A stretch of 64,000 nt of DNA, from the NCBI GenBank assembly GCA_031081715.1, contig JAVHMA010000006.1:1-64000 (forward strand), written 5' to 3'. Positions 3,238 through 53,665 of this stretch are shown piece after piece; the stretch's first letter is position 1, and each line of letters begins with the position of its first letter. The notes beneath the pieces were generated by a model. It did not search any database. It was not told the DNA's origin and was given only the letters and a program-made list of their open reading frames with translations. Position numbers and translations under genes: made by a program. The DNA is from Armatimonadota bacterium. Its GTDB lineage: Bacteria > Sysuimicrobiota > Sysuimicrobiia > Sysuimicrobiales > Humicultoraceae.

Positions 3238-3282
3238 GCACACTCCGACCTGACCAACTCTACGACTGGAGGAGGATGATGA

Positions 3283-4437: not shown

Positions 4438-4538
4438 AGAGTAGGCGTCAGGAGGTGAACCCAGAACATACGCCAGATCGATCGGGGCGAATGGTGAGAC
4501 GAGCCAGGAGCGAAACCAAGGGGGGAGCGTGATCGAAG

Positions 4539-6158: not shown

Positions 6159-6166
6159 GTCAGGCC

Positions 6167-6194
6167 GCGGGGCGGGCGCTCGCGCCCGCCCCGC
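6167..6194. terminator. Bidirectional intrinsic terminator hairpin
   Basis: A perfect 13-bp GC stem (GCGGGGCGGGCGC at 6167-6179 pairing with 6182-6194) with a 2-base apex. It lies exactly between the convergent stops of the family-5 binding protein and the DegT aminotransferase. The U-tract is poor, so termination may depend on the very strong stem or on Rho. Its symmetry lets it serve both strands. Confidence 0.7.
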
Positions 6195-6195
6195 C

Positions 6196-8261: not shown

Positions 8262-8268
8262 ACCGCCC

Positions 8269-9189
8269 TCACCGATAGCGGATCTGGGGGTCGAGGAATC
8301 CATAGAGGAGGTCCACGATCAGGTTGACCAGCACGAACGAGGTCGCGAAGAGCAACAGGATGCCCTGAATCAACGGGATGTCCCGCTGCCCGACGGCGGC
8401 GACCAGGAGGCGGCCGAGCCCTGGCCACGCGAAGACCTGCTCGATGACGACCGCGCCCCCCAGCATGTAGCCGAACCGCAGGCCGACCACGATCACCACC
8501 GGCAGCAGGGCATTGCGCAGGGCGTGGTAGCCCACGACGCGCCACTCCGGCGCGCCCTTGGCTCTCGCCGTCCGCACGTAGTCCTGCCGAATGACCTCCA
8601 GCAGCGACGACCGCGTCATGCGCGCGATGAACGCGAGCGAGAACGTCGCCAGGCTAATGGTCGGCATGACGTAGTGTCGCCATGTGTCGTCGCCGGCGCT
8701 CGGCAGGATGCGCAAGTTCACGCTGAACAGGTACATCATCAGCAGACCCAACCAGAACACGGGAATCGAGATGCCGAGCAGCGCCACGATGCTCGCCAGG
8801 TGATCCCACGCCGAGCCCTGACGCACCGCGGCGACGGTGCCCAGCAGTACCCCCACCACCGTCGCCAGGACAATGCTCGCCACCGAGAGCTTAACGGTGC
8901 TCAGGAACGGCGCCGCGAGCTCGAGCGAGACGTCCCGGCGCGTCATGATCGACCGGCCAAGGTCACCCTGGACCAGGCGGCGGAGGTAGCTGGCGTACTG
9001 GACGATCACAGGCCGGTCGAGCCCCAGCTCGCGCCGGACGCGCTCGACGACGTCGGGGGTGGCCTCGGGCCCCAGGAACGCCCGCGCCGGATCGCCGGGG
9101 ATGAGCTGGAAGGCGAAGAACACCGCAGTGACGACGAGGAACAGGACGGGGACGCCGGCCAGCACACGCCTTGCCACGTACGCTGCCAC
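8269..9189 (-). CDS. ABC transporter permease, DppB/OppB type
   Basis: A 306-residue inner-membrane permease starting at GTG with AAGGGGG just upstream. OppB-family marks are the N-terminal RRVLAGVPVLFLV membrane segment, IPGDPARAFLG, and the EAA loop DYVRTARAKGAPEWRV near residue 200, which docks the ATPase. About six membrane segments are visible. It forms the translocation pore with the DppC-like protein encoded 7 bases downstream. The ligand is probably an oligopeptide, opine or related small solute, judged only from family membership. Confidence 0.92.
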   Translation of the reverse strand: MAAYVARRVLAGVPVLFLVVTAVFFAFQLIPGDPARAFLGPEATPDVVERVRRELGLDRPVIVQYASYLRRLVQGDLGRSIMTRRDVSLELAAPFLSTVKLSVASIVLATVVGVLLGTVAAVRQGSAWDHLASIVALLGISIPVFWLGLLMMYLFSVNLRILPSAGDDTWRHYVMPTISLATFSLAFIARMTRSSLLEVIRQDYVRTARAKGAPEWRVVGYHALRNALLPVVIVVGLRFGYMLGGAVVIEQVFAWPGLGRLLVAAVGQRDIPLIQGILLLFATSFVLVNLIVDLLYGFLDPQIRYR

Positions 9190-9207
9190 GGATCCCCCTT
9201 CCCGCGA

Positions 9208-10026
9208 CTACGCGCCGTCCCGGCTCGCACGTTGGACCGCGAGCCACGCCGGGACGTCCCACCCGCGCTCGCGGATCAACTCGGACAGCGCGTACAGGTC
9301 GAAGCGACGCCCCGAGAGGACGCGCTCGGCCGTGCCGGCCAGGTACCCGAAGGCCTCCGCGAACGCCTCAGGGCTGACATACCGGCGTCGCTCCTCATCC
9401 GGGAAGGCCGCGAACTCCGCGTCCGTCATCGAAGTCGGCTTGGTCTTCGCCCCGGGCGTGCCCAGCGTCACGATGACTCCGTGCGCCGCGGCCTCCAGCG
9501 CCAGCGATCGGAAGAGGCCCTCGACGCCGAACTTGGTTGCACAGTAGGCGGTCTCGAGCGCAAACGGTCGTACGCCGGCGTTCGAGGACATCGCGATCAC
9601 GTTGCCGCGGCCGCGGCCGACCACAACCGGGTACATGCGCCAGGTCAGGTAGTACGCCGCGACCAGGTTCACCCGGAGGGTGTCCTCCCACACCCCGGTG
9701 TCGGTCTCCTCGAACGGCCGGAGGTAGAGGACCGCGGCGTTGTTGACCAGGATGTCTGGCTCTCCCCACTGCCCGCGTACCTCGGCCAGCGCGCGGTCGA
9801 TCTCGTCGGGCCGGCGGAGGTCGACGCGGACGGGCAAGATGTCGCCGCCCTCATCGCGCACGATTCGGACCGTCGTGTCGAGCTCGTCGCTGAGGTCCAT
9901 GGCCGCCACGCGGGCTCCCCGGCGCGCGACGCCCAGCGCGGCGCCGCGTCCGATGCCTCGGCCCGCCCCGGTGATCACGGCCACGCGCCCGCGGAGGCCG
10001 TCGTCTGGTCGCGGCGACATCATCAT
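9208..10026 (-). CDS. Short-chain dehydrogenase/reductase (SDR)
   Basis: A classical SDR of about 270 residues: cofactor loop TGAGRGIGRG, NNAAVL, the catalytic Ser in MSSNAG, and the dyad YCATK. After the dyad, LGTPGAKTKP replaces the usual PG segment. The start is uncertain, with three consecutive ATG codons (10018-10026) and no clear ribosome site. A TTG-started extension to 10110 exists, but its extra residues do not look like an SDR N-terminus. It likely oxidises a sugar or alcohol with NAD(P). It is the first gene of the minus-strand set with the peptide-type permeases and is divergent from the Gfo/Idh/MocA gene. Confidence 0.85.
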   Translation of the reverse strand: MMMSPRPDDGLRGRVAVITGAGRGIGRGAALGVARRGARVAAMDLSDELDTTVRIVRDEGGDILPVRVDLRRPDEIDRALAEVRGQWGEPDILVNNAAVLYLRPFEETDTGVWEDTLRVNLVAAYYLTWRMYPVVVGRGRGNVIAMSSNAGVRPFALETAYCATKFGVEGLFRSLALEAAAHGVIVTLGTPGAKTKPTSMTDAEFAAFPDEERRRYVSPEAFAEAFGYLAGTAERVLSGRRFDLYALSELIRERGWDVPAWLAVQRASRDGA

Positions 10027-10068
10027 CGAAGAGTACGTCTGGAGCAGAGGATTCGCACGGACGTGAGA

Positions 10069-10085
10069 GCCTCCTGCCGGGAGGC
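10069..10085. promoter_or_regulatory. Inverted repeat in divergent intergenic region
   Basis: GCCTCC-TGCCG-GGAGGC is a perfect 6-bp inverted repeat. It lies in the roughly 100-bp spacer between the divergent SDR and Gfo/Idh/MocA genes. It could be an operator for a shared regulator or a leader hairpin. No regulator gene is adjacent, so the role is a guess. Confidence 0.3.
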
Positions 10086-10127
10086 CCGCTCGACGGTGAC
10101 AGAACTCCAACGAGAAGAGGATGGGAC

Positions 10128-11106
10128 ATGATGCGGCGGGTGGGAATCATCGGCGCCGGCCAGGCCAGTCCACCATGCAACGGCCATCACGGCCAGCCGG
10201 CGTGCCTCGGTCGCGTGGGTGGCGGATCCCGTGCAGGCGCGGGGTGAAGCCCTGGCCGAGCGCTGCCGAAGCCGGTACGTACCGGACTATCGCACGGCGC
10301 TCGCCGACGCAGAGGCCGCGTGCATCTGCGTGCCCCACGCTAACCTGGCGGAGGTCGCGGTGGAGGTCGCGTGCGCTGGGGTCCACCTGTTGCTGGAAAA
10401 GCCCATGGCGACGACCCTGGCCGACGCCGACCGGGTGATCGGCGCCGCGCGCGAGCATGCCGTGATCCTGATGGTGGGGTTCGTGCACCGGTTCCGGCCA
10501 GAGGCGACCGAGGCTCGCCGGTTGATCGTCGCGGGCGCGATCGGTCGGCCCGTGCTCATCACTGACCATGGATTCGGCGGCGGGCAGGACGCCTGGCCCG
10601 CGTGGGTACAGCAAGCGCGGTCGGGGGGCGGCCTGCTGCTCTACTCCGGCGTCCACCGGTTCGATCGGGTCCGTTGGCTGCTCGCGCGCGAGGTGATCGC
10701 CGTGCGTGGGACGGTTGCCGCGCTCCTGCCAGGCAGTGATGTCGACTCGTCCTACGGAGCCCTGCTGGATCTGGAAGACCACAGGCGCGCAGTACTGACG
10801 CATCATTACCACGCGATCCCTGCACCGCACACCTGGGAGACGGAAATCCACGGTCTGGACGGTCTCATTCGGATCCGTACGGGTGAAGGGCTCGAGGTCT
10901 TCACGCGGGAGGGCATCAGACGAGTGTCCTCGGGACCGGACCGGCGGTTCGAGGCCCAGCTCGAGGCCTTCCTGGACGCGATCGACGGCGCGCGGGATCC
11001 GCTGTCCTCGGGCGCGGACGGGCGGGCCGCGCTCGCCATCGCACTGGCGGTCGCCCGCGCGCACACGACCGGGGAGACCGTGGCGCTCTCACCACCCCAC
11101 CAATAG
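10128..11106 (+). CDS. Gfo/Idh/MocA family oxidoreductase, apparently frameshifted near its start
   Basis: A NAD(P)-dependent sugar or inositol dehydrogenase-type protein. From 10128 the reading frame encodes MMRRVGIIGAGQA, the expected Rossmann glycine loop. The continuation (HHATAITAS..ASVAWVADPVQARGE) lies in another frame, which then stays open to the stop. The shift falls in about 10160-10168, equal to one extra base or two missing bases. Downstream the family motif LLEKPMATT is intact, as are the C-terminal domain (SGGGLLLYSGVHRFD) and FVHRFRPEA. The longest intact piece starts at 10219 (295 residues) and lacks the cofactor loop, so it should not bind NAD(P). Either a sequencing error or a recent mutation is possible. 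The next gene, an enolase-superfamily enzyme, starts shortly after. Confidence 0.75.
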
Positions 11107-11122
11107 AGGCAGGAGGATGCCG

Positions 11123-12223
11123 ATGCGGATCACGAGAGTACACGCGTGGCACGTACGCATGAGGCGGCGGGTCAGACTCACGACCTCGTACGGCGCCACG
11201 GCAGAGTCGGTGACGGTCGTGGCGGCGCTCGACACGGACCAGGGTCTCACCGGGTTCGGCCAAACCACGTCCGCCGCTCCGTGGTACGGCGAGAGCGCGG
11301 AGGCGATCATGGCCCAGATCGAGCGGTACCTGGGACCGGCCATCCTCGGCCGGAGCCCGCTAGACATCGAGGCCCTCGTACCCGTGCTAGACCGCGGCCT
11401 GCCCGGGGCCCTCTATGCCAAGTCCGCTATCGAGTTCGCCCTCTGGGACCTGAAAGGCAAGGCGCTGGGGGTGCCAGTCTACCAGCTCCTGGGCGGGCGG
11501 GCGCAGGAAGGCCTTCACCTGCACGGCTTCGTTCATCACGGCACGGTTGACGAGATGGTGGCCATGACGCATCAGCAGATCAGGGAAGGCTGGGTGATCC
11601 TTAAGATGAAGATTGGCATGAACCCAGCCGAGGATGCCGCCCGTTTTGCCGCGGTGCGCGAGGCCGCCGGCGGCCGCGCGGCCTTCCAGCTGGACGGGAA
11701 TACGGGCTACTCCCTGGGTGACGCGCTGCCCGCGCTGCGTGCGATGGAACGCCTCGGCGGTGTGGCGGTCTTCGAGCAGCCGGTGCGCTCCCTGGATGGG
11801 ATGGTCCGGCTGGCGCAGGCGCTGGAGACGCCGCTCATGGCCGACGAGCTGCTGAACACGCCCGAAGACGCCTTCCAGATCGCCCGCCGGCGAGCCGCGC
11901 ACGTCTTCCATATGAAACTGCACAAGTTCGGCGGCCTGCTGCGTGCCAAGCGCATTGCAGCCGTCGCCGAGGCAGCCGGGATCGTTCTCTCCGTGGCTCC
12001 CTACACCGACATCGAACTCGCGGCGGCGGCGCACTTCGCCGCATCCACACCGAACGCCACGTGGCCCGCAGGATTCACGCCGATGCACGACTCGATCCTG
12101 AGCGACCCGCTCGAGGTCATCGGGCAGCAGGTCAGGCCGCCCGAGCGAGCCGGGCTCGGTGTCGAGGTGGACCTGGCGCGGGTGCGGGCCGCGGCCCGCC
12201 AGGCGATCTCGGTGACCGCGTAG
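11123..12223 (+). CDS. Mandelate racemase/muconate lactonizing enzyme family protein
   Basis: A 366-residue enolase-superfamily enzyme with capping domain (about 1-120) and TIM barrel. The catalytic K-x-K is Lys161/Lys163. Metal-ligand candidates are Asp191 (FQLDGN), Glu218 (FEQP) and Asp241/Glu242 (ADE). The opposing lysine is Lys268 in HKFGG, which places it in the MLE-like rather than the mandelate-racemase (His/Asp) subgroup. AGGAGG ends 6 bases before the chosen ATG; an ATG at 11117 abuts the AGGAGG and is less likely. The reaction would start by proton abstraction next to a carboxylate (cycloisomerisation, racemisation or dehydration). Its pairing with the Gfo/Idh/MocA gene suggests sugar-acid or amino-acid-derivative catabolism. 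Confidence 0.9.
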   Translation: MRITRVHAWHVRMRRRVRLTTSYGATAESVTVVAALDTDQGLTGFGQTTSAAPWYGESAEAIMAQIERYLGPAILGRSPLDIEALVPVLDRGLPGALYAKSAIEFALWDLKGKALGVPVYQLLGGRAQEGLHLHGFVHHGTVDEMVAMTHQQIREGWVILKMKIGMNPAEDAARFAAVREAAGGRAAFQLDGNTGYSLGDALPALRAMERLGGVAVFEQPVRSLDGMVRLAQALETPLMADELLNTPEDAFQIARRRAAHVFHMKLHKFGGLLRAKRIAAVAEAAGIVLSVAPYTDIELAAAAHFAASTPNATWPAGFTPMHDSILSDPLEVIGQQVRPPERAGLGVEVDLARVRAAARQAISVTA

Positions 12224-12226
12224 GGT

Positions 12227-13375
12227 CTACGACGCGGGCGGCGGCGCGTCCGCCCACCGCCAGAGCAGCAGGATCGCGAGACCCACGGCCGCACCCGAGG
12301 AGATCAGCAGCGGGTATGCCGGATTCGCGCGGTACGCGTACCCGCCTGCGAACGACCCGGCGGCCGCGAGTAGCGCTGATGACATGCCGGCCAGGGAGAA
12401 CGCCCGGCCCAGAATCGCGGGCGGAGTCCGGGCACCGATCATGGCCTGAGCGAGCGCACTGAGCGGCGCGCGGCACCGCAGGGTCGCCGCTACCGGGAGC
12501 AGGACCGTCGGACCGTACACGGTCGCGAGCACGCCGAGCGAGAACACGCCGAGCTGGCCCGCCAGCGCCGGCGCGAGGCCGACGCGATCCGCTAACCGGC
12601 CGGCGAGCGGTGTCAGGATTACGGCTCCCACGGCCATCATGGAGTTCAGCATGCCGATCTCCGCGAGAGAGACACCGCGCGCCTCGCGCAGGAAGGGGGA
12701 CAAGAAAGGCACGACCAGGAGGATTACGGTCTGAACCCCGACGTAGACCGCCAGCACCGGGGCGAGCAGACGGAGATCGCCGATCGACGGCGCCCGCGAC
12801 GCGCCCGACGGCATCGCGCCGGGGCCGCCGTGCTCGACGCGAACGATGAGCCCTGTGGACAGCACGAAGAGGAAGAACGCCACCACCAACACCACGCGGA
12901 TGCCCGCGTATTCGGCGATCACGCCGCCCACCGCCGGGGAGACCAGGAAACCCACCGACGTCATCGTGCCCATCACGCTAAAGGCGCCCGCCAGCTCGCC
13001 TGGCGGTACGCGCTCCGTGACGTACGACTGGATGACCGGAAGGGCGAAGAACGTCAGCTCGTAGAGGAGCAGCCCCGGCAGGAGCCAGAGGTAACCAGGC
13101 GCCGCGGCCAGCATCAGCGGCACCGGCAGACCGATCAGCCACGACGCCAGCATCAACGTTCGCCGGCTGAACCGGTCCGCGACGCCCCATCCGATCAGGA
13201 AACCGACCGCCAGCGCCAGACTGCGGACCGTGAACAGGACGCCGAGCTCCACCGCCGAGGCGCCGAGCTGGCGGGCAAAGATAGGGATAAGGCCCTCGTA
13301 GAGGCCGACCCCGAGCATCCACAGCAACAGCGACGCGAACAGGAGCCGCAGGTTGCGGTCGGTACGGATCCTCAT
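12227..13375 (-). CDS. MFS transporter
   Basis: A 382-residue major-facilitator protein with about 12 membrane segments. After the second helix comes the loop GVADRFSRRTLM, an A-like motif (G..aDr..rr), repeated in weaker form as GRLADRVG in the second half. The start is the ATG of MRIRTDRNLRLLF, 8 bases after the GHMP-kinase stop; longer upstream reading has no membrane-protein character. It is the last gene of the ten-gene minus-strand operon and converges on the enolase-superfamily gene with a 3-base gap. A sugar or metabolite exporter is likely; the direction and substrate cannot be read from the sequence. Confidence 0.88.
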   Translation of the reverse strand: MRIRTDRNLRLLFASLLLWMLGVGLYEGLIPIFARQLGASAVELGVLFTVRSLALAVGFLIGWGVADRFSRRTLMLASWLIGLPVPLMLAAAPGYLWLLPGLLLYELTFFALPVIQSYVTERVPPGELAGAFSVMGTMTSVGFLVSPAVGGVIAEYAGIRVVLVVAFFLFVLSTGLIVRVEHGGPGAMPSGASRAPSIGDLRLLAPVLAVYVGVQTVILLVVPFLSPFLREARGVSLAEIGMLNSMMAVGAVILTPLAGRLADRVGLAPALAGQLGVFSLGVLATVYGPTVLLPVAATLRCRAPLSALAQAMIGARTPPAILGRAFSLAGMSSALLAAAGSFAGGYAYRANPAYPLLISSGAAVGLAILLLWRWADAPPPAS

Positions 13376-13383
13376 TCGGACCG

Positions 13384-14391
13384 CTACCGCCGCACGCGCA
13401 CGCTCAGCCCCCGCGCCGCGATGCGCGCCGGCAGCACTGGAAACCCGGCCTGCCGCAGCCCGGCCTCGCAGAACCGCTTCGCGCCCGGCCGCACCACCAG
13501 CAGCACGCACCCGCCGCCGCCCGCGCCACACGCCTTGCCCGCGAGCGCGCCGTGGCGCCGCGCCACGGCGAGGGCTCGGGCGACGACCGGGGTGGAGACA
13601 CCCGAGGCGAGCTCCCGACGGTGCTCCCACTCCTCCGCGACGAGCGAGGCCAGCGCATCGAGCCGGCGCTGCAGCAAGGCATCGCGCACGCGGCGCGCGA
13701 TGGCCGCGATGCTGCGCAGGTGGTTCACCGTGGACGGCACCCCGTCCAGGTACGCCCGCACGACCCCCCAGTTCGTCAGGCCCGAGGAGTGCGGCCGGCC
13801 GGTGTAGGCGATGACCAGCCGTTCCTGGAGCGCGCGGCGCAGCCGCGGGTCGCGCAGCACGGGGTGCACCCCGTCGCCGTCGGCGCCGAAGCGGATCGCG
13901 TTGACCCCGCCCCAGAGCGCGGCCAAGTAGTCCTGCCGACCCGTGAGGGTGCGCAGCGCCTGCGCCTCCAGACGCCAAGCCGCCGCCACGAGGTCGGCGG
14001 GCGACCGGCGTCGTCGCGTCCAACGGTCGAGCGCGGCCAGCAGTGCCACCAGGAGCGCGGACGACGCGCCGAGCCCGCTGCCCGGCGGGGCGGCCGACTC
14101 CATCGTCACCGCGAGTCCCTCGCGCGGCCGCGCGAACCGCAGCGCTCGGGCGGCGAGGTCCAGCGGCCCGCCTGCGGGCAGGGCGTCGAGCGTCGGGGCG
14201 ACAGCGCGCTCGCCCTGGTCCTTCGAGACCACGACGTAGCCACGCGGCGCGGGCGCCAGCCGCACACGCACCGGCACCTCCACCGCCACGTTCACCGTCC
14301 AGGCGTCGTCCTCAAGCAGGTAGAGGGGATGGATGTCGAGCGTGCCGCCGGCCAGGTCGACGCGCGTGGGCGCGCGCGCGGTGACGATCAC
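13384..14391 (-). CDS. GHMP-family kinase (sugar kinase type)
   Basis: A 335-residue GHMP-superfamily protein. It starts ARAPTRVDLAGGTLD, carries the ATP-binding motif PPGSGLGASSAL near residue 95 and ends with the C-terminal glycine motif GKACGAGGGGCVLLV. The profile is closest to bacterial heptose or fucose 1- and 7-kinases. The start is a GTG overlapping the TGA of the upstream gene (GTGA), which shows translational coupling. It would phosphorylate a sugar released in the cytoplasm from the ligand of the neighbouring ABC importer. The exact sugar is unknown. Confidence 0.87.
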   Translation of the reverse strand: MIVTARAPTRVDLAGGTLDIHPLYLLEDDAWTVNVAVEVPVRVRLAPAPRGYVVVSKDQGERAVAPTLDALPAGGPLDLAARALRFARPREGLAVTMESAAPPGSGLGASSALLVALLAALDRWTRRRRSPADLVAAAWRLEAQALRTLTGRQDYLAALWGGVNAIRFGADGDGVHPVLRDPRLRRALQERLVIAYTGRPHSSGLTNWGVVRAYLDGVPSTVNHLRSIAAIARRVRDALLQRRLDALASLVAEEWEHRRELASGVSTPVVARALAVARRHGALAGKACGAGGGGCVLLVVRPGAKRFCEAGLRQAGFPVLPARIAARGLSVRVRR

Positions 14392-15068
14392 AGCGCCATC
14401 GCGTCCAGTGCCCGCCGGAACGCCTCGGTCGCGCGTCCGATCCCGCGCGCGGTGCGACCGGTGACCACGGCACCGATCATGATCGCCCACACCTGTGGAA
14501 TCGCGAAGTACCGCGGCAGGTCCTCGGGCCGCACCCGCCGCTGGGTGGGCACGATCATGCGGCGCCTGGCGGCGGCGCCCAACCGTGCGAGCGCCACCAA
14601 GTCGCCCGCCGCCGGGTGCCGGCCGTACCCGTCGGGCGCGACCAGCGCGGCCTCGAGCCACTCGCCCGGCAGCGCGGCCAGCGCGCCGAGAGCCTCGGGC
14701 GGGTAGTCGTGGGGGATCGCGGGGACCACCGGGACGCCCACATCATAAAGGAAGAGCGGCAGCCTGGTGATGTAGGCATCGAGGAACGCGAACCGCCGCA
14801 GCCGCCGCAGCTCGTCCGGGCTCACCATCTCGTCCTCGCCGGGCACCAGGCCCGTGGGCAGCCCCACCGCCAGGATCTCCTCCAGCGCGGCGCCCTCCTC
14901 GTCGAGTGAGCCGAAGCGGGTTCCCGAGGCGCGGTGCCGGACATTGACGTGTACCTTGAGCAGGTCGGCGCCGGCGGAGGCGGCGGCGCGCGCCAGCGCC
15001 ACGTCGTTGCGCGGCAGGCTCACGATGAGCAGGCCGCGCCGGCCGAGCGGGTCGGTCCCCCGGGTCAT
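14388..15068 (-). CDS. Uncharacterised TIM-barrel-like protein
   Basis: A 226-residue protein I do not recognise as a named family. It shows alternating strand/helix periodicity like a small beta/alpha barrel: GLLIVSLPRND, then ADLLKVHVNV, then GLPTGLVPGEDE, then VPVVPAIPHDYP. The end (VTGRTARGIGRATEAFRRAL) recalls the phosphate-binding terminus of HisA/NanE-like barrels. KVHVNVRHRASG..FGSLDEE may hold active-site residues. It is locked between the FAD oxidoreductase (ATGA overlap) and the GHMP kinase (GTGA overlap), so equimolar co-translation is likely. An isomerase, epimerase or aldolase on the sugar phosphate is a reasonable but untested guess. Confidence 0.7.
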   Translation of the reverse strand: MTRGTDPLGRRGLLIVSLPRNDVALARAAASAGADLLKVHVNVRHRASGTRFGSLDEEGAALEEILAVGLPTGLVPGEDEMVSPDELRRLRRFAFLDAYITRLPLFLYDVGVPVVPAIPHDYPPEALGALAALPGEWLEAALVAPDGYGRHPAAGDLVALARLGAAARRRMIVPTQRRVRPEDLPRYFAIPQVWAIMIGAVVTGRTARGIGRATEAFRRALDAMAL

Positions 15069-16435
15069 GGCCCGACGAACGCCCCGCGCTCGCGGAGTCG
15101 CGCCCGTAGCGCCCGCGGGTCCACGGCCCGCAGCCCGACCCCGGCCCTCGCGGCCATCGCAGCCGCGGTCCCCGCCGCCTGCGCGATCGCCATCACGATC
15201 GCCGAGACCCGGAAGGCCGCGAACGCCTCGTGCGTGGACGAGATGCACCGGCCGGCGACCAGCCAGTTCTCGCCGCCGCGCGGCAGCAGGCACCGATAGG
15301 GAATCGTGTAGTAGTCGCCGCGCGGCACGCGGCGCGTGACCAGCCGCTCGGACGCCGGATCGTGGATGTCGATGGGATAGGCGCCGCAGGCCACCGCGTC
15401 CTCGAACTTCCGGGCCGAGACGATGTCGTCCGCCGTGAGCACGTAGTCCCCCACCACCCGCCGGGTCTCCCGCACGCCGATCTGCGCCGGCGTCTCGAGC
15501 AGGTAGGACGCGCCGAACCCGGGCACCCGCCGCCGGAGGAAGTCGGCCACCTGATACGCCTGGCGTCGCCCCTCGACCTCGGCCCGCGCGAGGTCCTCGC
15601 CCACGATGCCCAGCCGGTCGAGCACCCGCGTCGTGTTGACCACCGCCTCGCCGGGCCGTACGCCCTCGAAGACCAGCAGGCGGTCGCGCGGCACGGTCCA
15701 CTCGCCCCGCGCGCGCGCCTCGCGCACCAGCCCGCCGAACCCGGCGAAGCCGCGGCTGGGCAGCCCGCGCAGCCAAGCGATCTCGATGCGCTCGTGGATG
15801 CCCTGGCCGTGCTGGACCTCGTCGGGATGACGCTCGAGGTGCGCCATCACCGCCGCCCAGTCCACCCCGCCCAGGCGGAACATCATCGTCATCGGCTGCG
15901 GCCGCCGGTCCGAGGACCGGCCGACCTCGGCCTGCGCGCCCGCGGAGACCGAGAGGTCGCCGTCGCCCGAGGCGTCCACGAACACCGGTGCGCGCAGCTC
16001 GCGCTCGCCGTCCTTCTGCCAGACGCGCGCGGCGCGCACCACCCCACCGTCGGCCCGCGCGCGCAGGAACACGGTGTGGAGCCAGAGTTCCACCCCGGCA
16101 CCGGTCGCCATCTCCAGCAACACGCGCTTGAGGCCCTCGTAGTCGAACGGCGTGACCGAGTCGCAGAAGTCGATCGGGTCGGGGACGTGCCCGGGCGAGG
16201 CACCCAGGGCCACCAGCCGCTCGACGATCTCGCCGGGAATCCCGCGAACCACTTGAAGGTCGCCCGCGTGGAATCCCATGATCGGGGCCACCATCGCGGC
16301 GGTCAGCGTCCCGCCCAGAAACCCGTAGCGCTCCACGAGTGCCACGCGCGCGCCCTCGCGGGCGGCCGCGATCGCGGCGGTGGAGCCGGCCGGGCCCCCG
16401 CCGATCACCACGACGTCAAACGCCTTGCGCCTCAT
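15065..16435 (-). CDS. FAD-dependent oxidoreductase (FAD_oxidored/GidA-like fold)
   Basis: A 456-residue flavoprotein. Its N-terminal dinucleotide fold VVIGGGPAGSTAAIAAAREG is followed by VALVERYGFLGG, the ribose-binding acidic end and FAD loop of the FAD_oxidored family. VFVDASGDGDLS lies in the middle, and the C-terminal FAD contact reads NWLVAGRCISSTHEAFA. Relatives are common beside sugar ABC transporters in Gram-positive bacteria and candidate phyla, mostly with no assigned substrate. It overlaps DUF4127 upstream by 20 bp and the TIM-barrel gene downstream by 4 bp. A role oxidising a carbohydrate-derived compound in the cytoplasm is inferred from the operon. Confidence 0.87.
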   Translation of the reverse strand: MRRKAFDVVVIGGGPAGSTAAIAAAREGARVALVERYGFLGGTLTAAMVAPIMGFHAGDLQVVRGIPGEIVERLVALGASPGHVPDPIDFCDSVTPFDYEGLKRVLLEMATGAGVELWLHTVFLRARADGGVVRAARVWQKDGERELRAPVFVDASGDGDLSVSAGAQAEVGRSSDRRPQPMTMMFRLGGVDWAAVMAHLERHPDEVQHGQGIHERIEIAWLRGLPSRGFAGFGGLVREARARGEWTVPRDRLLVFEGVRPGEAVVNTTRVLDRLGIVGEDLARAEVEGRRQAYQVADFLRRRVPGFGASYLLETPAQIGVRETRRVVGDYVLTADDIVSARKFEDAVACGAYPIDIHDPASERLVTRRVPRGDYYTIPYRCLLPRGGENWLVAGRCISSTHEAFAAFRVSAIVMAIAQAAGTAAAMAARAGVGLRAVDPRALRARLRERGAFVGP

Positions 16436-17924
16436 CCGTCAACCGCACCTCGACCTCGAACAGCCGGTCCCACGGAAATGCCACGCCGTCGAAACCCGTG
16501 GCGCCGAGCGCGCGCTCGATCGGCGGCAGGACCTCGTCGCGGAAACGGCGCTGCGCCGCGTCGGACACCGCGGCCGCCGCCGCGCCCAGAGCCGCGGCGT
16601 TTGCGCCCACGCCCGCGAGCACCTCCTGCGCCAGGTACGGCCGGACCACGGCCTGGTACCCCCAGTCGTCGAGGAGCCGGCGCGCCAGGTAGCGCCGCCG
16701 CAGCCGGCGCAGCCGCACCTCGCCCAGCCGGCCGCGCGCGCAGAGGACCAGGATCACCTGGGCCAGCACCGTGCCCAGGGTGTTGCTGCACGTGTTCCAT
16801 CCGGCATAGCCCCACAGACCGGCCAGGTCGTCGCGCGCGAACAGCGACCGCACGAGCGCGTCGTCCGCGCCGTTGGCGAAGCGCACATCGGCGCACCCGC
16901 AGATGAGCCCGCGCCCCGCGGCCTCGGCTAGCGCCGCGGCCACCGTCCGCGTCGGGGCCGGCGGCGCCCCGCGCTGGTCCGCGGCCTCGCGCTGGGTGAC
17001 GCCCGCGAAGTTGTGCACCCACAGCAGGACCTCTGGCGACTCGTCGTCGACGACGCAGCCCGCGGCCTCCAGGTGGCTCGCCACGGTCTCCTCAAGCGTG
17101 AACGGCTCGTAGCGCGGCACGCTCCGCCTGGCCTCGGGGTAGGTGTACCGCACGGCCACCCGCGGCGGCCGGCCGAGCTCGTCCACCGCGGCGCGTGCGA
17201 GCAGCCGCGCGCACAGCTCGTCGGCGCCGGCCGAGACGTGTGCCCGCGCTCCGCCGCAGCGGTCGCGGAAGCGGCGCAGCACGGCCAGGTCCCCACGGGT
17301 CAGGCCGTAGGGCTCGGCGTCGTCCTGGCCGATCAGGAGCGCGCTCAGGCGCCCGGCACCGGCCAGGACGATGAGCTCGATGTTGACCACGAGCTGACGG
17401 CGCCGACGCCGGAGCAGGTCGTCCACCACGGTGGCGGGGACATCCGCGATCGCGTCGAGCGCCAGCCGGATGCGGCCGTCGTTGTCCGTGGCCTCACCGG
17501 CGTCCAGGTGCGCGGAGTACGCGCGCAGCCGGTCGCCGTAGGCGCCCCAGTACGCGGGCTCTTCGTCGCCGCCCCCGGTGGGGATGCGCGGGTTCACCGC
17601 GGCCAGGTAGGTGGGCACGCGCGCGGCCAGGCGAACGACCCGGTCGAGCCGGCGCCACAGAACCTCGAGCGAGTCCACCGAGAGCCGCGAGGCCACCAAC
17701 CCGCCGTGGATGAGCACCTCGGCCGAGGCGATCAGCGCATCCGCCCCTGGCGCCTCGCGCTCGACCCACCGGAACAGCCCGTCCAGGTCAGCCGGACGGC
17801 GCCGGCGCCCCAGCAGGTCGCGGGGCGGCGTGTCCCATGCCGCCCCGAGCAGCGGCAGCAGGTCGAGCACCGTCTCGCGCGTCGCCGGCCGGTCGTCGAG
17901 CGGCACGAAGAGCACCCGCTTCAC
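16416..17924 (-). CDS. DUF4127 family protein
   Basis: A 502-residue protein of the DUF4127 family, recognised from the N-terminal VLFVPLDDRPATRETV, ASAEVLIHGGLVASR near residue 80 and GYAGWNTCSNTLGTVLAQ near residue 375. The family has no established activity known to me. Conserved Asp, Asn and His clusters suggest an enzyme, and genomic neighbours in other bacteria are usually sugar importers. Here the GTG start overlaps the stop of the MalG-like permease (GTGA), tying its synthesis to sugar uptake. No signal peptide is visible, so it should act in the cytoplasm. Its position directly after the importer suggests the first modification or cleavage of the imported ligand. Confidence 0.85.
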   Translation of the reverse strand: MKRVLFVPLDDRPATRETVLDLLPLLGAAWDTPPRDLLGRRRRPADLDGLFRWVEREAPGADALIASAEVLIHGGLVASRLSVDSLEVLWRRLDRVVRLAARVPTYLAAVNPRIPTGGGDEEPAYWGAYGDRLRAYSAHLDAGEATDNDGRIRLALDAIADVPATVVDDLLRRRRRQLVVNIELIVLAGAGRLSALLIGQDDAEPYGLTRGDLAVLRRFRDRCGGARAHVSAGADELCARLLARAAVDELGRPPRVAVRYTYPEARRSVPRYEPFTLEETVASHLEAAGCVVDDESPEVLLWVHNFAGVTQREAADQRGAPPAPTRTVAAALAEAAGRGLICGCADVRFANGADDALVRSLFARDDLAGLWGYAGWNTCSNTLGTVLAQVILVLCARGRLGEVRLRRLRRRYLARRLLDDWGYQAVVRPYLAQEVLAGVGANAAALGAAAAAVSDAAQRRFRDEVLPPIERALGATGFDGVAFPWDRLFEVEVRLTDEAQGV

Positions 17925-18727
17925 CGCACCGCCCCCACCGTGAGCCCGCGCAGGAAGTACCGCTGCGTGAACAGGAAGACGACCACGATGGGGATGGTCA
18001 TGAGCACCGCGCCCGCGGCCACCGCCCGCGTGTTGTGGGCGAACAGCCCCGAGAGGTACAGCAGCCCCACGGCCAGGGGGTACTTCTCGGGCGTCTTCAG
18101 CACGATCAACGGCCACAGGAACGAGTTCCACACCGCCACGAACTCGAACAGCGCGAGCGCGGCCAGCGCGGGCGCGATCACGGGCAGCATCACGCGCCAC
18201 CAGATGCCCCACTCCGAGGCGCCGTCGATGCGCGCCGCGTCCTCCAGCTCGGCCGGCACGGTCAGGAATGCCTGGCGCAGCAGGAAGATCCCGAAGACGG
18301 ACACCGCGCCCGGCAGCAGCACACCGGCGTACGTGTCCACCAGCCCCAGCCGGAGCAGCGTGACGAAGTTCACGATCATGCCCACGTGCCCGGGCAGCAT
18401 CAGGGTGGAGAGCAGCAGCGCGGCCACGAGCTTCCGGCCTGGGAACTCGATGCGCGCCAGGGGGTAGGCGGCCATCGCGCACAGCACGACGTTGAGCGCC
18501 ACCGCGGCGCCGCACAGCAGCACGGTGTTGGCGAAGAAGCGCGGGAGCGGCATCGTCTGCCACACGGTGACGAAGTGCGCCGCCGAGACCGGCCAGGGCA
18601 CGAGCTGGGGCGGGAAGCCGAAGACGCTGCCGGTGGCGCGCAGGGCGATCGAGAGCAGCCACAACAGCGGAAAGATGGCAAACGCCGCGAGCGCCGCCAG
18701 GCCCGCGTAGCGCACGGCCAGCCCCAC
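17921..18727 (-). CDS. Carbohydrate ABC transporter permease, MalG type
   Basis: A 268-residue inner-membrane protein with six membrane segments, starting at GTG. The EAA loop, PAELEDAARIDGASEWGIWWRVMLP, contacts the ATPase. The terminal RYFLRGLTVGAVR is the usual MalG-family end. It pairs with the MalF-type gene 7 bases upstream and overlaps DUF4127 by 4 bp. No ATPase gene is in this operon; a shared MsmK/UgpC-type ATPase such as the one at 36739-37818 could energise it. Confidence 0.93.
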   Translation of the reverse strand: MGLAVRYAGLAALAAFAIFPLLWLLSIALRATGSVFGFPPQLVPWPVSAAHFVTVWQTMPLPRFFANTVLLCGAAVALNVVLCAMAAYPLARIEFPGRKLVAALLLSTLMLPGHVGMIVNFVTLLRLGLVDTYAGVLLPGAVSVFGIFLLRQAFLTVPAELEDAARIDGASEWGIWWRVMLPVIAPALAALALFEFVAVWNSFLWPLIVLKTPEKYPLAVGLLYLSGLFAHNTRAVAAGAVLMTIPIVVVFLFTQRYFLRGLTVGAVR

Positions 18728-18734
18728 GCTGCGG

Positions 18735-19682
18735 CTAGTGATAGGTCCACCCCCCCTCGCGGAAGATGCGGAAGTTGACCGCCGACAGCGCCAGGATGGC
18801 CCCGGCCAGCACCACCGCCAGCGCCGCGGCGTAGCCCATGTCGAGCTGCTGAAACCCGCGGTCGAAGATGTAGTAGAACATGGTGTACGTCCGGAACATC
18901 GGGCCGCCGCCGGTCATCACATAGACCTCCTCGAAGACCTTGAGCGCGGCCATCGCCGAGATCGTCGAGGCGAGCAGAATCGAGGGCCGCAGCAGCGGCA
19001 GGGTGACGCGGCGGAAGACCTGCCATCGCGTGGCACCGTCCACGACGGCCGCCTCCTCCACCTCGGGCGAGATCGCCTGCAGGCCGACCAGGTAGATCAC
19101 CATGTAGAAGCCGAGGCCCTTCCACAGGGTCACGAACATCACCGCGTAGAGCGCCAGGTCGGGATCGCCGAGCCAGGCGACCGGCCGCGCCAGCGCGCCG
19201 ATGCTCAGCAACAGCCAGTTCACCACCCCGTCCTGCTCGAGCAGCCACCGCCACATCAGGCCGACCGCGACCATCGAGGTCACGACCGGGAGGTAGTACG
19301 CGGCACGGAACCACCGGATCCCGCGGACCGGCTTGTTGACCGTGACGGCGAGCGCGATGGAGAGGCCCTGCAGCACCGGCACCACGAGCAGGAACTTCAC
19401 GGAGTTACCCAGCGCGATCCAGAAGTAGCGGTCTTCCGCCATGGCGCGAAAGTGCGCGAGCCCGACGAAGCGCGGCGGCGAGATCACGTCGTAGTCGAAC
19501 AGGGCGAGCGCGGTGCCGAAGAGCACAGGGTAGAACGTGAAGACGCCGAGCAGAACCAGCGCCGGCGTCAGGAACGCGTAGGCGACCGCCGCGGCGCGAC
19601 GCTCCCGCCGGGTGAGCCCCCGGCGACCGACGCGGGCGGCGGCGCGGACGGCGGGGCGCGCGGGGCGGGCCTCAGCCCCCAT
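18735..19682 (-). CDS. Carbohydrate ABC transporter permease, MalF type
   Basis: Sugar permease of about 315 residues. The cytoplasmic start is Arg-rich (GRRGLTRRERR), then comes the first membrane segment AYAFLTPALVLLGVF. The EAA loop reads PEVEEAAVVDGATRWQVFRRVTLP. The start is set at the ATG giving an 11-bp overlap with the esterase gene; an ATG at 19727 would lengthen the overlap to 56 bp. It forms the translocation channel with the MalG-type protein encoded downstream. Confidence 0.92.
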   Translation of the reverse strand: MGAEARPARPAVRAAARVGRRGLTRRERRAAAVAYAFLTPALVLLGVFTFYPVLFGTALALFDYDVISPPRFVGLAHFRAMAEDRYFWIALGNSVKFLLVVPVLQGLSIALAVTVNKPVRGIRWFRAAYYLPVVTSMVAVGLMWRWLLEQDGVVNWLLLSIGALARPVAWLGDPDLALYAVMFVTLWKGLGFYMVIYLVGLQAISPEVEEAAVVDGATRWQVFRRVTLPLLRPSILLASTISAMAALKVFEEVYVMTGGGPMFRTYTMFYYIFDRGFQQLDMGYAAALAVVLAGAILALSAVNFRIFREGGWTYH

Positions 19683-20685
19683 CGGGGCCGGCGAGCGTTT
19701 CGCAGAGCCGTCGGAGGGACTCGACATAGCGGTAGTTGATGGAGGTGTGATCGTCGTCGAACTCCGCGTACTCGTGCCGGATCCCCAGGGCCTGGAGGCG
19801 CCGGTGGAGCTGGCGCGCCCCGAGGTGGAGGTGGTACTGATCGCGCGAACCGCACTCCAGATAGATGAGCCGGTGGCGGCGGAGCGCGTCGGCGTAGCGC
19901 GGGGCCATGCGGAGCGGATCCCAGTCGAGCCAGCGCGCCCAGGTCTCCTCGTCGAGCGCGCCCGTGTGCGGGTCGAACGGCAGGTCGAACCGAAACGGCG
20001 CCCGGGCCGGGTTCGGCGAGTACGCCATCGCCATGGCGGCGATGTTCACCGCCGTCAGCGCGTCGTGGGTCTTCTTGGGCATCTCGAGGAACGCCTGGAG
20101 GAAGGCATCGGAGCCGCCGTACTTCGCCACGATGTTGCAATACTTCCAGAAGTCGGGCATATAGCAGGCTTCGAAGAACATATCGCCCGAGTGCGACGCC
20201 ACCGCCCCGAAGACGTCGGGGTGGCGCATCGCCAGGACGAGGGCGCCGTAGCCGCCGCTCGACTTGCCGTCGACGCCGCGGTGGCGCGCGGAGGGCAGCG
20301 TCCGGTACCGACCGTCGACGAACGCGACGAGCTCGCGCGCGACGAAGTCCTCGTATCGGCCGGTGGCCTCGGAGTTCAGGTACTGGCTGCCGCCGAAGCG
20401 TGTGAAGCCGTCCGCCATGACCAGGATCGCCGGCGGCGCGCCCGCCGCCGCCGCCCGGTCCATGCACTCGGGCAGCGAGGGCACCCACGGGTTCGCGTTG
20501 ATCGCGGAGAGCCCGATGCCGGTGAAGCCGTGCAGCCAGTAGATGACGGGATAGCGAGCCGCACCGTCGTCGTAGCCTGGCGGCAGGTAGACCGGGATAC
20601 GGCGGACGTGGGGGTCGCCGAGCGGGTTGCCGCGGAGCTCGCGGCTGTCGACCTCCTCCACCACCAGGCGCCCGCGGAGCGTCAT
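19672..20685 (-). CDS. Alpha/beta-hydrolase fold esterase (esterase D/Fes-like)
   Basis: A 337-residue putative esterase (PF00756-type). Markers are RRIPVYLPPGYDDG near residue 30, the oxyanion region YWLHGFTG and the nucleophile elbow GVDGKSSGGYGA, whose Ser lies about residue 141. The catalytic acid and His are expected around DPLRMAP and EFDDDHTS near the C-terminus. There is no export signal, so it should act in the cytoplasm. Such esterases remove acyl groups from carbohydrates or siderophores. It is encoded between the binding protein and the permeases of a sugar importer, which suggests deacylation of an acylated sugar ligand. Confidence 0.85.
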   Translation of the reverse strand: MTLRGRLVVEEVDSRELRGNPLGDPHVRRIPVYLPPGYDDGAARYPVIYWLHGFTGIGLSAINANPWVPSLPECMDRAAAAGAPPAILVMADGFTRFGGSQYLNSEATGRYEDFVARELVAFVDGRYRTLPSARHRGVDGKSSGGYGALVLAMRHPDVFGAVASHSGDMFFEACYMPDFWKYCNIVAKYGGSDAFLQAFLEMPKKTHDALTAVNIAAMAMAYSPNPARAPFRFDLPFDPHTGALDEETWARWLDWDPLRMAPRYADALRRHRLIYLECGSRDQYHLHLGARQLHRRLQALGIRHEYAEFDDDHTSINYRYVESLRRLCETLAGPDGG

Positions 20686-20732
20686 CCTGGCGGAAGATTC
20701 AGGACGCCGTGAAAGGACCCCTGCTCCAAGAC

Positions 20733-20746
20733 AGCCGGTGCCGGCT
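20733..20746. other. Palindromic hairpin after the binding-protein stop
   Basis: AGCCGG-TG-CCGGCT is a perfect 6-bp stem overlapping the stop of the sugar-binding-protein gene on the minus strand. It lies just before the esterase gene. Hairpins here often protect binding-protein mRNA or partly terminate transcription to lower permease levels. A similar arrangement occurs after the other sugar-binding-protein gene at 34972-34997. Confidence 0.35.
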
Positions 20747-21983
20747 AGAGGCGCTCGTTCCAGCCGCGGACCGCCCAGTCGAGCGCGTCCTGCGGGCTCC
20801 GCTTGCCGTAGAACGCGCTCTCGACGGCCTCGCGAAAGATACGGAACAGGTCCCCGGCGTGCGGCACGACGACGCTCAGATCGCGCGCGACCGGCAAGTC
20901 TGCGGCGGCGATGCGACGCGCGACGTCCTCGGGCCCGCTCCCCGCCGCCCGGAAGAACGGATCCGCCGCGGCCCGGCGAGTGGACGGGAAGACCACCACC
21001 CGGCGGCTGAACGCGAGCTGGTTGGCGTCGTTGGTAACGTAGAGCGCGAAGTCTACCGCCGCCTGCCGGTGGCGCGAGGCGCGCGGGACCGAGACCACCA
21101 TCGTCGCCAGGTGCAGCACGCGGCCGCGGCCCCGGGGGTAGGCCGCCACGCGCGTCTGCGCGTAGACCTCGGGGTTGTCCTGCTTCACCCGCAGGAGAAA
21201 CTGGGGCCCGGTCACGAGCATGCCGAGCCGGCCGGCGCTGTACCGCTCGGTCGCGCCCAGGTAGCCGCGGCGCAGCGTGTCCTCGGGGAAGTAGTCCGCC
21301 TTGAACAGTTCCACGTACTGCGCCAGGTAGCGCACGTGCGCCGGCGAGTTGAAGACCGCCCGCTTCCCGTCCGGGCTCAGCACCGGGAGTCCGTGTTCCT
21401 GGAACCGGTGGAGCATGCGCACGCCGTCCACGTTGGGCATGAAACCGTAGGTGCCCGTGCGGTCCTTGATCTGGCGGGCGTGGCGAATCATCTCGTCCTC
21501 GGTCCGGGGCGGCGCGGCCGGATCGAGGCCCGCGCGCTCGTAGAGCACCGCATTATAGGCCGTCACGCTCGGCGTGACGTACCAGGGCACACCGTAGGTG
21601 CGGCCGCCTACCCGCGCCGAGCGCCACAGGCCCTCGAAGTACCGGGCGCGGGCCTCCGCCGGGACGGCCGCGTCCATGTCCACCAGCGCGTCGCGCTGCG
21701 CCAGCCGCACCGCGATCTCGGTGTTGAGGTTGACCACGTCGGGCGCCACGCGGCCGGCGAGCGCCGCGAGCAGGCGCTGCTCGACAGCCTGGAACTGCAC
21801 GTCCACCCAGCGGACGCGCACGGTCGGGTTGGCCTGCTGGTAGGCGGCGATCAGGCCGTTGACGTAGTCGGTGAAGAACGGCTGCAGGGAGATGGTCCAG
21901 AACTCGAGGGTCACGGCGGGCGCGGCCGTGCCGTGCCCGATGACGCCCAGCAGCAGCACAAGGGCCAGGACAACCGCCCTCAT
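20745..21983 (-). CDS. Extracellular sugar-binding protein of ABC transporter (family 1)
   Basis: A 412-residue exported binding protein. The signal peptide is MRAVVLALVLLLGVIGHGTA-APA; the mature protein begins VTLEFWTIS. Family-1 features are PDVVNLNTEIAVRLAQRDALVDMD, YGVPWYVTP and the C-terminal AVDFALYVTNDANQLAFSRR. The ATG overlaps the stop of the PP-loop gene (ATGA). It supplies the MalF/MalG pair encoded further on, probably with an oligosaccharide or glycoside ligand. An upstream in-frame ATG at 22055 would bury the signal sequence and is rejected. Confidence 0.92.
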   Translation of the reverse strand: MRAVVLALVLLLGVIGHGTAAPAVTLEFWTISLQPFFTDYVNGLIAAYQQANPTVRVRWVDVQFQAVEQRLLAALAGRVAPDVVNLNTEIAVRLAQRDALVDMDAAVPAEARARYFEGLWRSARVGGRTYGVPWYVTPSVTAYNAVLYERAGLDPAAPPRTEDEMIRHARQIKDRTGTYGFMPNVDGVRMLHRFQEHGLPVLSPDGKRAVFNSPAHVRYLAQYVELFKADYFPEDTLRRGYLGATERYSAGRLGMLVTGPQFLLRVKQDNPEVYAQTRVAAYPRGRGRVLHLATMVVSVPRASRHRQAAVDFALYVTNDANQLAFSRRVVVFPSTRRAAADPFFRAAGSGPEDVARRIAAADLPVARDLSVVVPHAGDLFRIFREAVESAFYGKRSPQDALDWAVRGWNERL

Positions 21984-22966
21984 GTCGGCGTCCCGGCCGG
22001 CACCGCGTCGACGACCTGGAAGGTGCGGAGGCGCGGGTTTTGGCTCGGCCGCCACTCCACCTCGATCGGGTGCGCGAAGTCCACTGCCAGGCGACCGCGG
22101 GCCACCCAGCCGCGCCCGGCGGCATCGCCGGCGAGCGCCGGGCCGGCCATGACCACGAGGCGCTGCGGGCCGTCCACAAATCGGACCTCGTCCAGGACCG
22201 GGAGGCGCACGAGCGCCGCACGGATCGCCTCCCGCACCTCGGCCGGCGGATGCGGGCGCACGTTCACGAGCGCGACGTTGCGCGACAGGGGGCCGATGAT
22301 CTTCACGTTCGCCAGGTCGGCCCGCACCCCGTGGCTTGACAGCACCTCGAGCAGCACCTCGTTCGCCTCGGCCACGGCGCGGCCGTGATAGGTAGGGCTG
22401 ACCAGTGGCTTCAGCAGGTGCTTGAGTTTGCAGCCCTCGCGCCCCGGGTGCTCGCCGATACGCGGTATCCGCAGGCCCAGCTCGTCGGCGAGCCCGCGGA
22501 TCTGCGGCTTGTCCAGGTCGAGCAGCGGCGCGTAGAAGCCGTTGGCAACCTTGACGCCCATCTGGCCCCAGGTGTCACTGCGGTTCGACCCGGTGAGCAC
22601 CAGGCGGCCGCGCGAGGCGGCCTTCACCATGCCGAGCTTGATCGTCCGCGTGCACCGGTTGCAGGCCGGGCCGCCGCGCTGGACGACGTGCTGCATCCCC
22701 TGGCCCAGCAGACAGCGCTGGGGTAGCCCGAGCTGGTCGGCCATCTCCAGGACGATGCGGTTGCCGCGCCGGTAGGCGTACTGCCCCATGTTCACCGTGA
22801 CGAGCAGCACGCGGTCCCCGCCGAGGGCATCGCGGGCAAGCGCGGCGACCGTGGACGAGTCCAGGCCGCCGCTGAAGGCGACGACGACGGGCGCGCCGGC
22901 GGCGACCTCGCGGATCTCCGTCAGCAGGCCATCGAGCAGGGCTGAGCGCGCGGCCACCGGCGTCAT
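21980..22966 (-). CDS. PP-loop superfamily ATP-pyrophosphatase, LarE-like
   Basis: A 328-residue protein. The adenylation PP-loop is FSGGLDSSTVA (about residue 31), as in LarE, ExsB/QueC and TtuA. A CNRC pair (around residue 104) and a later GREGC give three cysteines in the order seen in Fe-S-containing sulfur-transfer members. C-terminal SRNVALVNVRPHP resembles the LarE C-domain. LarE builds the nickel-pincer cofactor by donating sulfur; this relative could modify a cofactor, a tRNA or a metabolite. It heads the long minus-strand sugar operon, which is unexpected. A TATAAT element on the minus strand (22976-22981) lies so close that the mRNA may be almost leaderless. Confidence 0.78.
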   Translation of the reverse strand: MTPVAARSALLDGLLTEIREVAAGAPVVVAFSGGLDSSTVAALARDALGGDRVLLVTVNMGQYAYRRGNRIVLEMADQLGLPQRCLLGQGMQHVVQRGGPACNRCTRTIKLGMVKAASRGRLVLTGSNRSDTWGQMGVKVANGFYAPLLDLDKPQIRGLADELGLRIPRIGEHPGREGCKLKHLLKPLVSPTYHGRAVAEANEVLLEVLSSHGVRADLANVKIIGPLSRNVALVNVRPHPPAEVREAIRAALVRLPVLDEVRFVDGPQRLVVMAGPALAGDAAGRGWVARGRLAVDFAHPIEVEWRPSQNPRLRTFQVVDAVPAGTPT

Positions 22967-22975
22967 CGCGCCTCC

Positions 22976-22981
22976 ATTATA
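22976..22981 (-). promoter_or_regulatory. Putative -10 element of the ten-gene operon
   Basis: TATAAT reads on the minus strand 9 bases before the ATG of the PP-loop gene. The predicted start point is only a few bases before the ATG. No good -35 match is seen 16-18 bases further out. GGAGG lies between the -10 and the ATG. This could be the promoter of the whole 22966-to-12227 operon. Confidence 0.45.
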
Positions 22982-34958: not shown

Positions 34959-34971
34959 GTTCCGCGTGACC

Positions 34972-34997
34972 GGGGGAGGCCGCCCGCGGCCTCCCCC
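34972..34997 (+). terminator. Intercistronic hairpin after binding-protein gene
   Basis: A perfect 12-bp inverted repeat (GGGGGAGGCCGC with its complement, 2-base apex; realistically a 10-11-bp stem with a small loop). It lies between the binding-protein stop and the first permease start. The tail TTCTCC is weakly U-rich. It probably attenuates transcription or protects the upstream mRNA, giving an excess of binding protein over permease. Confidence 0.55.
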
Positions 34998-35004
34998 TTC
35001 TCCG

Positions 35005-36716: not shown

Positions 36717-36738
36717 CCACGCCCGCGGAGGCCCGACG

Positions 36739-41918: not shown

Positions 41919-45233
<3,315 letters not shown>

Positions 45234-45239
45234 CCGGCC

Positions 45240-51544: not shown

Positions 51545-53665
<2,121 letters not shown>

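Follow-up and report, generated by a model that had tools for sequence, protein, structure and literature searches.

The first 64,000 nucleotides of contig JAVHMA010000006.1 from an Armatimonadota bacterium (assembly GCA_031081715.1; this whole stretch is called the window) carry a ten-gene minus-strand operon. It encodes, among others, a DUF4127 protein, a flavin adenine dinucleotide (FAD)-dependent oxidoreductase of family PF12831 and a 226-residue protein without a family, here called BAR. The operon is real. Its conserved part is a core composed of a ChiE-like sugar ATP-binding cassette (ABC) importer and the DUF4127, FAD oxidoreductase and BAR genes, and not the ten genes together.

Conserved core and its distribution

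DUF4127 and BAR were searched for in 43 genomes of the window's phylum. Loci were annotated with purpose-made gene calls and profiles, except for plasmids, which were taken from annotated records. DUF4127 occurs in 32 of the 43 genomes and BAR in 11, plus one fragment; each is present as a single copy in the window's genome. The order solute-binding protein (SBP)-MalF-MalG-DUF4127 is kept in most of the DUF4127-carrying relatives examined. This core is followed by the FAD and BAR genes in family f1, to which the window belongs, and in parts of family f3, and DUF4127, FAD and BAR are found together in loci L043, L044, L046, L047, L052 and L054 of the phylum. Such conservation of gene order across genomes indicates an operon beyond chance. 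The PP-loop ATPase, esterase, GHMP kinase and major facilitator superfamily (MFS) transporter genes are almost restricted to f1, the PP-loop gene being part of the operon in this family only. A first-pass annotation of this DNA had read import, deacylation, phosphorylation and export as one series; given this restriction, the series is lineage-specific rather than a conserved pathway. Family f4 (L057-L059, L064-L069) shows another arrangement, in which DUF4127 is accompanied by a double GNAT acetyltransferase and a glycoside hydrolase family 3 (GH3) gene and the operon includes neither FAD nor BAR.

The association extends to Bacillota. In 300 genomes evenly drawn from the phylum of the Bacillota metagenome-assembled genome (MAG) G043, DUF4127 exceeds the cut-off in 46 and BAR in 12. 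DUF4127 is enriched among the BAR genomes (10 of 12 compared to 46/300 overall, Fisher p = 1.5e-7; this and the other genome-level statistics ignore shared ancestry). BAR directly adjoins DUF4127, with FAD beside them, in seven Bacillota loci (L152-L158, of which L154 and L155 are near-identical copies). A FAD gene lies within five genes of BAR in 46 of 50 BAR loci. Two of the four loci without a FAD call are located at contig ends or divided among contigs, and in L083, also one of the four, BLAST identified a FAD-family gene. In a tree of 85 DUF4127 sequences, BAR-linked members form a Bacillota group and are also scattered inside the group of the window's phylum. Well-supported branches impose at least five changes of BAR label, an approximate count, as the tree was built quickly and contains some long branches. 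The presence of BAR-linked DUF4127 in separate lineages of both phyla argues for a real coupling rather than a single inherited cluster. The first-pass annotation would have given up its grouping of DUF4127, barrel and FAD had other genomes shown no conserved neighbourhood; their co-occurrence is indeed found in distant genomes.

Numerous Bacillota DUF4127 genes stand alone, so that the operon form represents a subset of the family. On a Deinococcus plasmid, nagZ is followed by SBP-GH20-(hypothetical)-MalF-MalG-FAD-DUF4127 (GH20, glycoside hydrolase family 20). DUF4127 also accompanies NanE, the N-acetylmannosamine-6-phosphate (ManNAc-6-P) 2-epimerase, on plasmids of Priestia, Carnobacterium and Enterococcus, the last two apparently with a phosphotransferase system in place of the ABC importer. 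In addition, distant-subfamily DUF4127 genes lie beside phage-like genes on provirus contigs of IMG/VR (L172-L174).

The three core proteins

The DUF4127 protein matches PF13552 with 372.6 bits (gathering score 27) over positions 1-488 of 489, and the FAD protein matches PF12831 over its full length with 420.6 bits (gathering score 27); both are members of these families. Structure prediction for DUF4127 reached a predicted local distance difference test (pLDDT) score of 38 from four sequences (the window's own and three provirus-flank relatives), too low for a usable model. Sequence-profile searches of the PDB with DUF4127 matched nothing, and a literature search found no paper on DUF4127 or its partners. 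No described pathway with this gene set was found in the literature either, as the first-pass annotation had supposed.

BAR matches no family by sequence in Pfam, NCBIfam or the PDB. AlphaFold2 with 22 homologues predicts a (βα)8 barrel (pLDDT 94.2, predicted TM-score 0.91), the fold anticipated from the sequence. Foldseek searches with this model return TrpA, PdxJ, ribulose-phosphate 3-epimerase (RPE), KDPGal/KDPG aldolase, KGPDC and MfnB, with E about 1e-7 to 6e-6, TM about 0.5-0.7 and identity of 11-22%. The predicted fold thus places BAR in the ribulose-phosphate-binding barrel class, with which it shares no sequence-profile match and in which no single family stands out. Comparison with a viral structure library yielded generic barrels only. 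Six residues are invariant: K38, H40 and H45 on or just after strand 2, E58, E139 on strand 6 and Q176 on strand 7. A largely conserved G-x-[VIL]-VTG motif follows strand 8 and may hint at a phosphate-binding site at strands 7-8. With a lysine and a glutamate on opposite strands, BAR might be a Schiff-base aldolase or an epimerase.

Amino-sugar genes and the proposed pathway

Genes accompanying the core in relatives suggest its substrate. A GH20 beta-N-acetylhexosaminidase gene lies between SBP and esterase in f1 relatives; judging from this comparison, the window's copy of the operon has lost it. Loci with GH20 include L043, L044, L047, L052 and L054. GH3 genes occur in f3 and f4, and the one tested, from L066, scores above the NCBIfam cut-off for beta-N-acetylhexosaminidase. 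In family f5, NanE precedes SBP. NanE and a NanK-like ROK kinase stand alongside FAD-DUF4127 in L055, L166-L168 and L194, and L056 has NanE; the ROK kinase of L055 passes the N-acetylmannosamine kinase subfamily cut-off. At the genome level, DUF4127 is present in 20 of 31 NanE genomes of Bacillota (p = 2e-11). In good genomes of the window's phylum, 22 of 23 with DUF4127 also have NanE, against 0 of 5 without DUF4127 (p = 6e-5). The DUF4127 loci examined showed no recognisable gene for sialic-acid lyase (NanA). The GH20, GH3/NagZ, NanE and NanK genes of the relatives indicate a glycoside of N-acetylglucosamine (GlcNAc) or N-acetylmannosamine (ManNAc) type, a link hidden in the window, where GH20 is missing. 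The earlier proposal that the operon imports, processes and exports an acylated or glycosylated sugar keeps its operon and is redirected to this substrate class.

The sister DUF4127-FAD operons share NanE, a NanK-like ROK kinase and RpiR regulators with nan-type ManNAc catabolism, whereas the window's operon encodes BAR and a GHMP kinase in their place. Both forms lie side by side in genome G113. The first block comprises acetyl-xylan-esterase-like, RpiR, NanE, ROK, FAD, GHL10-like, DUF4127, SBP, GH20, MalF and MalG genes, and is directly followed by LacI, DUF4127, BAR, FAD, SBP, MalF and MalG (esterase and regulator names are our own reading of the sequences). BAR thus occupies the position of NanE/NanK in the sister version. 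The FAD proteins are divided accordingly in their tree: NanE-linked proteins, bar one distant copy, form one clade with 100% support, apart from BAR-type proteins. This clade also holds two DUF4127-linked proteins whose locus shows no NanE. The FAD subtype therefore appears, from the tree, to track its partner.

The importer can be compared with the Thermotoga ChiEFG-CbsA-NagAB chitobiose operon, whose ChiEFG assignment rests on a chitobiose-responsive regulator (Rodionov 2013, PMC3750489). The window shares its MalE/F/G-type importer with a ChiE-like SBP (PMC3750489, PMC8938411). However, a beta-N-acetylhexosaminidase is found in the operons of the window's relatives and not in its own, which also lacks NagA/NagB, and the description of the Thermotoga operon contains nothing equivalent to DUF4127, the PF12831 enzyme or BAR. 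The closest solved relative of the SBP is MsBP from Synechococcus (6WPM/6WPN; E = 1e-58 for 6WPM), whose cluster is annotated by similarity as chitobiose-binding ChiE, K17244 (PMC8938411). The GHMP kinase resembles HddA-type kinases over nearly its whole length (PDB 3k85, E = 2e-28). However, it scores 93.5 bits against the HddA model NF049969 (equivalog cut-off 600 bits), outside that family, and no heptose genes are found nearby.

We propose, with an even chance of being right, that the operon serves the catabolism of a beta-linked N-acetylhexosamine glycoside, such as a GlcNAc- or ManNAc-containing disaccharide; we infer the substrate class, the order of steps and all reactions of DUF4127, FAD and BAR from homology and gene neighbourhood. 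The ChiE-like importer would take up the glycoside. In relatives, the co-encoded GH20 or GH3/NagZ enzyme would cleave off the N-acetylhexosamine, while in the window the esterase may trim an acyl group instead. The DUF4127-FAD pair, coupled by its conserved neighbourhood, would perform a shared central conversion of the imported sugar, the product of which would be handled by NanK and NanE in relatives. In the window's version, BAR may act on the product of the FAD enzyme as a sugar or sugar-phosphate epimerase, aldolase or lyase, a role suggested by its fold class and by its location, which corresponds to that of NanE in the sister operon. The HddA-like GHMP kinase beside BAR in f1 would supply the phosphate, as ROK/NanK does elsewhere. 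The MFS transporter and the PP-loop protein would be lineage-specific additions.

Several observations weigh against this proposal. The ten genes of the window's operon include, by Pfam, no hexosaminidase (nor nagA/nagB); MsBP itself is reported to favour phosphorylated sugars with zinc and to lack affinity for GlcNAc (PMC8938411); and the genome-level associations may in part reflect shared ancestry, which they ignore. Moreover, BAR and FAD occur in loci that have neither DUF4127 nor a hexosaminidase. A Rhizobiales operon reads LacI-FAD-SBP-MalF-MalG-UgpC-BAR, with BAR last, and in some Bacillota both genes are found with a secondary transporter and a hydantoinase/oxoprolinase, the latter coming closest, among named models, to caprolactamase alpha without reaching its cut-off. 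BAR and FAD therefore form a separable pair, whose substrate may be wider than, or different from, amino sugars. The idea of the first-pass annotation that DUF4127, barrel and FAD act in sequence holds in so far as the three are neighbours in distant genomes, and is weakened by these loci and by the lone DUF4127 genes.

The same loci favour an independent BAR-FAD module that handles a second compound, such as the aglycone remaining once the hexosamine has been cleaved off, with DUF4127 and the hexosaminidases acting on the sugar half. The SBP-GH-DUF4127 arrangement of f4 without FAD or BAR, and the presence of NanE in most BAR genomes, are consistent with it. However, DUF4127-FAD with NanE/NanK and without BAR is common (L055, L056, L164-L168), so the FAD enzyme also belongs to the sugar half. 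Since BAR moreover adjoins DUF4127 directly in the seven Bacillota loci, we consider a separate module rather unlikely. L152 joins hydantoinase, BAR, DUF4127 and FAD.

The hydantoinase loci show further features. In L082 (Bacillota MAG ZC3RG07, 2914-10669) a ROK regulator, a secondary transporter and the hydantoinase/oxoprolinase are followed by BAR1, FAD and BAR2, the FAD gene being flanked by two distinct BAR paralogues in a genome without DUF4127. L159 and L163 (Bacillota) combine BAR-FAD-hydantoinase with an amidohydrolase, a RraA-like aldolase, a D-cysteine-desulfhydrase-family enzyme, an aldehyde-dehydrogenase-like gene and a 2-keto-3-deoxygluconate-kinase-like gene, and possibly represent a separate catabolic route. 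An oxidative (glucosaminate) route was considered for BAR-FAD-hydantoinase loci because two of them carry this kinase-like gene and a PALP enzyme; however, the latter is closest to D-cysteate sulfo-lyase, below cut-off, and no paper linking the terms was found. Small proteins (176-209 amino acids) with an HExxH-like motif, two of which were tested and gave no Pfam match, lie beside hydantoinase, BAR and FAD in L152, L159, L160 and L162.

A different protein performing the NanE reaction (ManNAc-6-P to GlcNAc-6-P) is another candidate identity for BAR, with the GHMP kinase standing for NanK. Among DUF4127 loci with sugar genes, none with BAR within eight genes has NanE (p about 0.005-0.014, ancestry uncorrected). 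Both proteins share the same broad barrel class, and NanE is the only sugar-phosphate enzyme among weak PDB profile matches (E = 0.5). However, none of 19 BAR members matches the NanE profile PF04131, the comparison of profiles is not significant (hhalign probability 6.8%), and NanE is usually encoded elsewhere in BAR genomes (9 of 12 in Bacillota, p = 7e-8, and most of those of the window's phylum, including the window's own, G000). This co-occurrence rules out a genome-level substitution. As G113 moreover keeps both operon forms, BAR is not a mere NanE substitute: the exchange is distinctly improbable, and BAR more probably works on a product that is related yet distinct.

A single ten-gene pathway of acylated-sugar import, deacylation, oxidation, rearrangement, phosphorylation and export, as first annotated, is very doubtful. 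Every named gene is present and tightly coupled, and relatives repeatedly have ester hydrolases as well (AXE1-type in L166 and Priestia, GDSL in Rhizobiales), but the core exists without the four genes almost confined to f1. Recycling of peptidoglycan N-acetylmuramic acid is the least credible reading: NagZ-type GH3, NanE and RpiR regulators do occur in sister loci, but the operon has none of MurQ, AnmK or AmgK by Pfam, and recycling genes form a separate cluster in the same genome. This cluster, L221 (G000:C33:57000-74582, 7697-17568), contains AnmK, MurQ, a NagK-like kinase, a serine-hydrolase-like gene, an oligopeptide-type ABC importer and a RpiR-type regulator. Between AnmK and MurQ, the opposite strand carries a NanE gene.

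Operon layout, flanking genes and implications

A gene caller trained on the operon's codons returned the ten genes exactly (Table 1). Their order, overlaps and gaps are those of the first-pass annotation, and Pfam agrees with every family name given there, the barrel matching none. Reading of the sequence shows 4-bp ATGA overlaps at the PP-loop/SBP and FAD/BAR junctions, 4-bp GTGA overlaps at MalG/DUF4127 and BAR/GHMP kinase, and overlaps of 11 bp at esterase/MalF and 20 bp at DUF4127/FAD. Gaps of 59, 7 and 8 bp separate SBP/esterase, MalF/MalG and GHMP kinase/MFS, respectively. A sigma-70 scan found no complete promoter.

Table 1. Features of the operon, in order of transcription (window coordinates)
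Feature	Position	Strand	Basis and remarks
TATAAT hexamer, possible -10 element	22976..22981	-	9 bp upstream of first ATG; read in sequence
PP-loop ATPase, NAD_synthase/QueC/LarE-like HUP domain	21980..22966	-	First gene; Pfam; no NCBIfam cut-off reached
SBP (SBP_bac_1), sugar ABC solute-binding protein	20745..21983	-	Pfam
Esterase PF00756, esterase D/feruloyl-esterase-like	19672..20685	-	Pfam
MalF-type ABC permease	18735..19682	-	Pfam, gene call
MalG-type ABC permease	17921..18727	-	Pfam, gene call
DUF4127 protein, PF13552 full length	16416..17924	-	E = 3e-111
FAD-dependent oxidoreductase PF12831	15065..16435	-	E = 1e-125
BAR, 226-residue (βα)8-barrel protein without family	14388..15068	-	No Pfam/NCBIfam match; predicted fold
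GHMP kinase, closest to HddA (D-glycero-D-manno-heptose 7-phosphate kinase)	13384..14391	-	Pfam; NCBIfam below cut-off
MFS transporter	12227..13375	-	Last gene; Pfam

The region 10219-12223 carries a Gfo/Idh/MocA oxidoreductase gene and a plus-strand gene of the mandelate-racemase/enolase superfamily; the latter converges on the operon, its end lying 3 bp from the MFS stop. A second sugar ABC cluster (33654-37818) encodes SBP, MalF, MalG and a UgpC-like ATPase. The DUF4127 importer itself lacks an ATPase and might be powered by this one. Alpha-amylase-family genes at 41919-53665, including a trehalose-synthase/maltokinase-type fusion (41919-45233), likely constitute a trehalose/glycogen region.

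DUF4127 is a sizeable family, present in Deinococcus in addition to the Bacillota and window-phylum genomes counted above. The recurring neighbourhood gives DUF4127 and the nameless BAR family a substrate class with two product branches, NanK/NanE or BAR, and Priestia, Deinococcus, Carnobacterium and Rhizobium are culturable hosts for DUF4127/BAR systems. Tentatively, and with some way to go before an even chance, DUF4127, the PF12831 flavoenzyme and BAR may represent three new enzymes of an undescribed amino-sugar breakdown present in several phyla, where the flavoenzyme, by oxidation, and a barrel epimerase or aldolase would stand in for the NanK-NanE branch.

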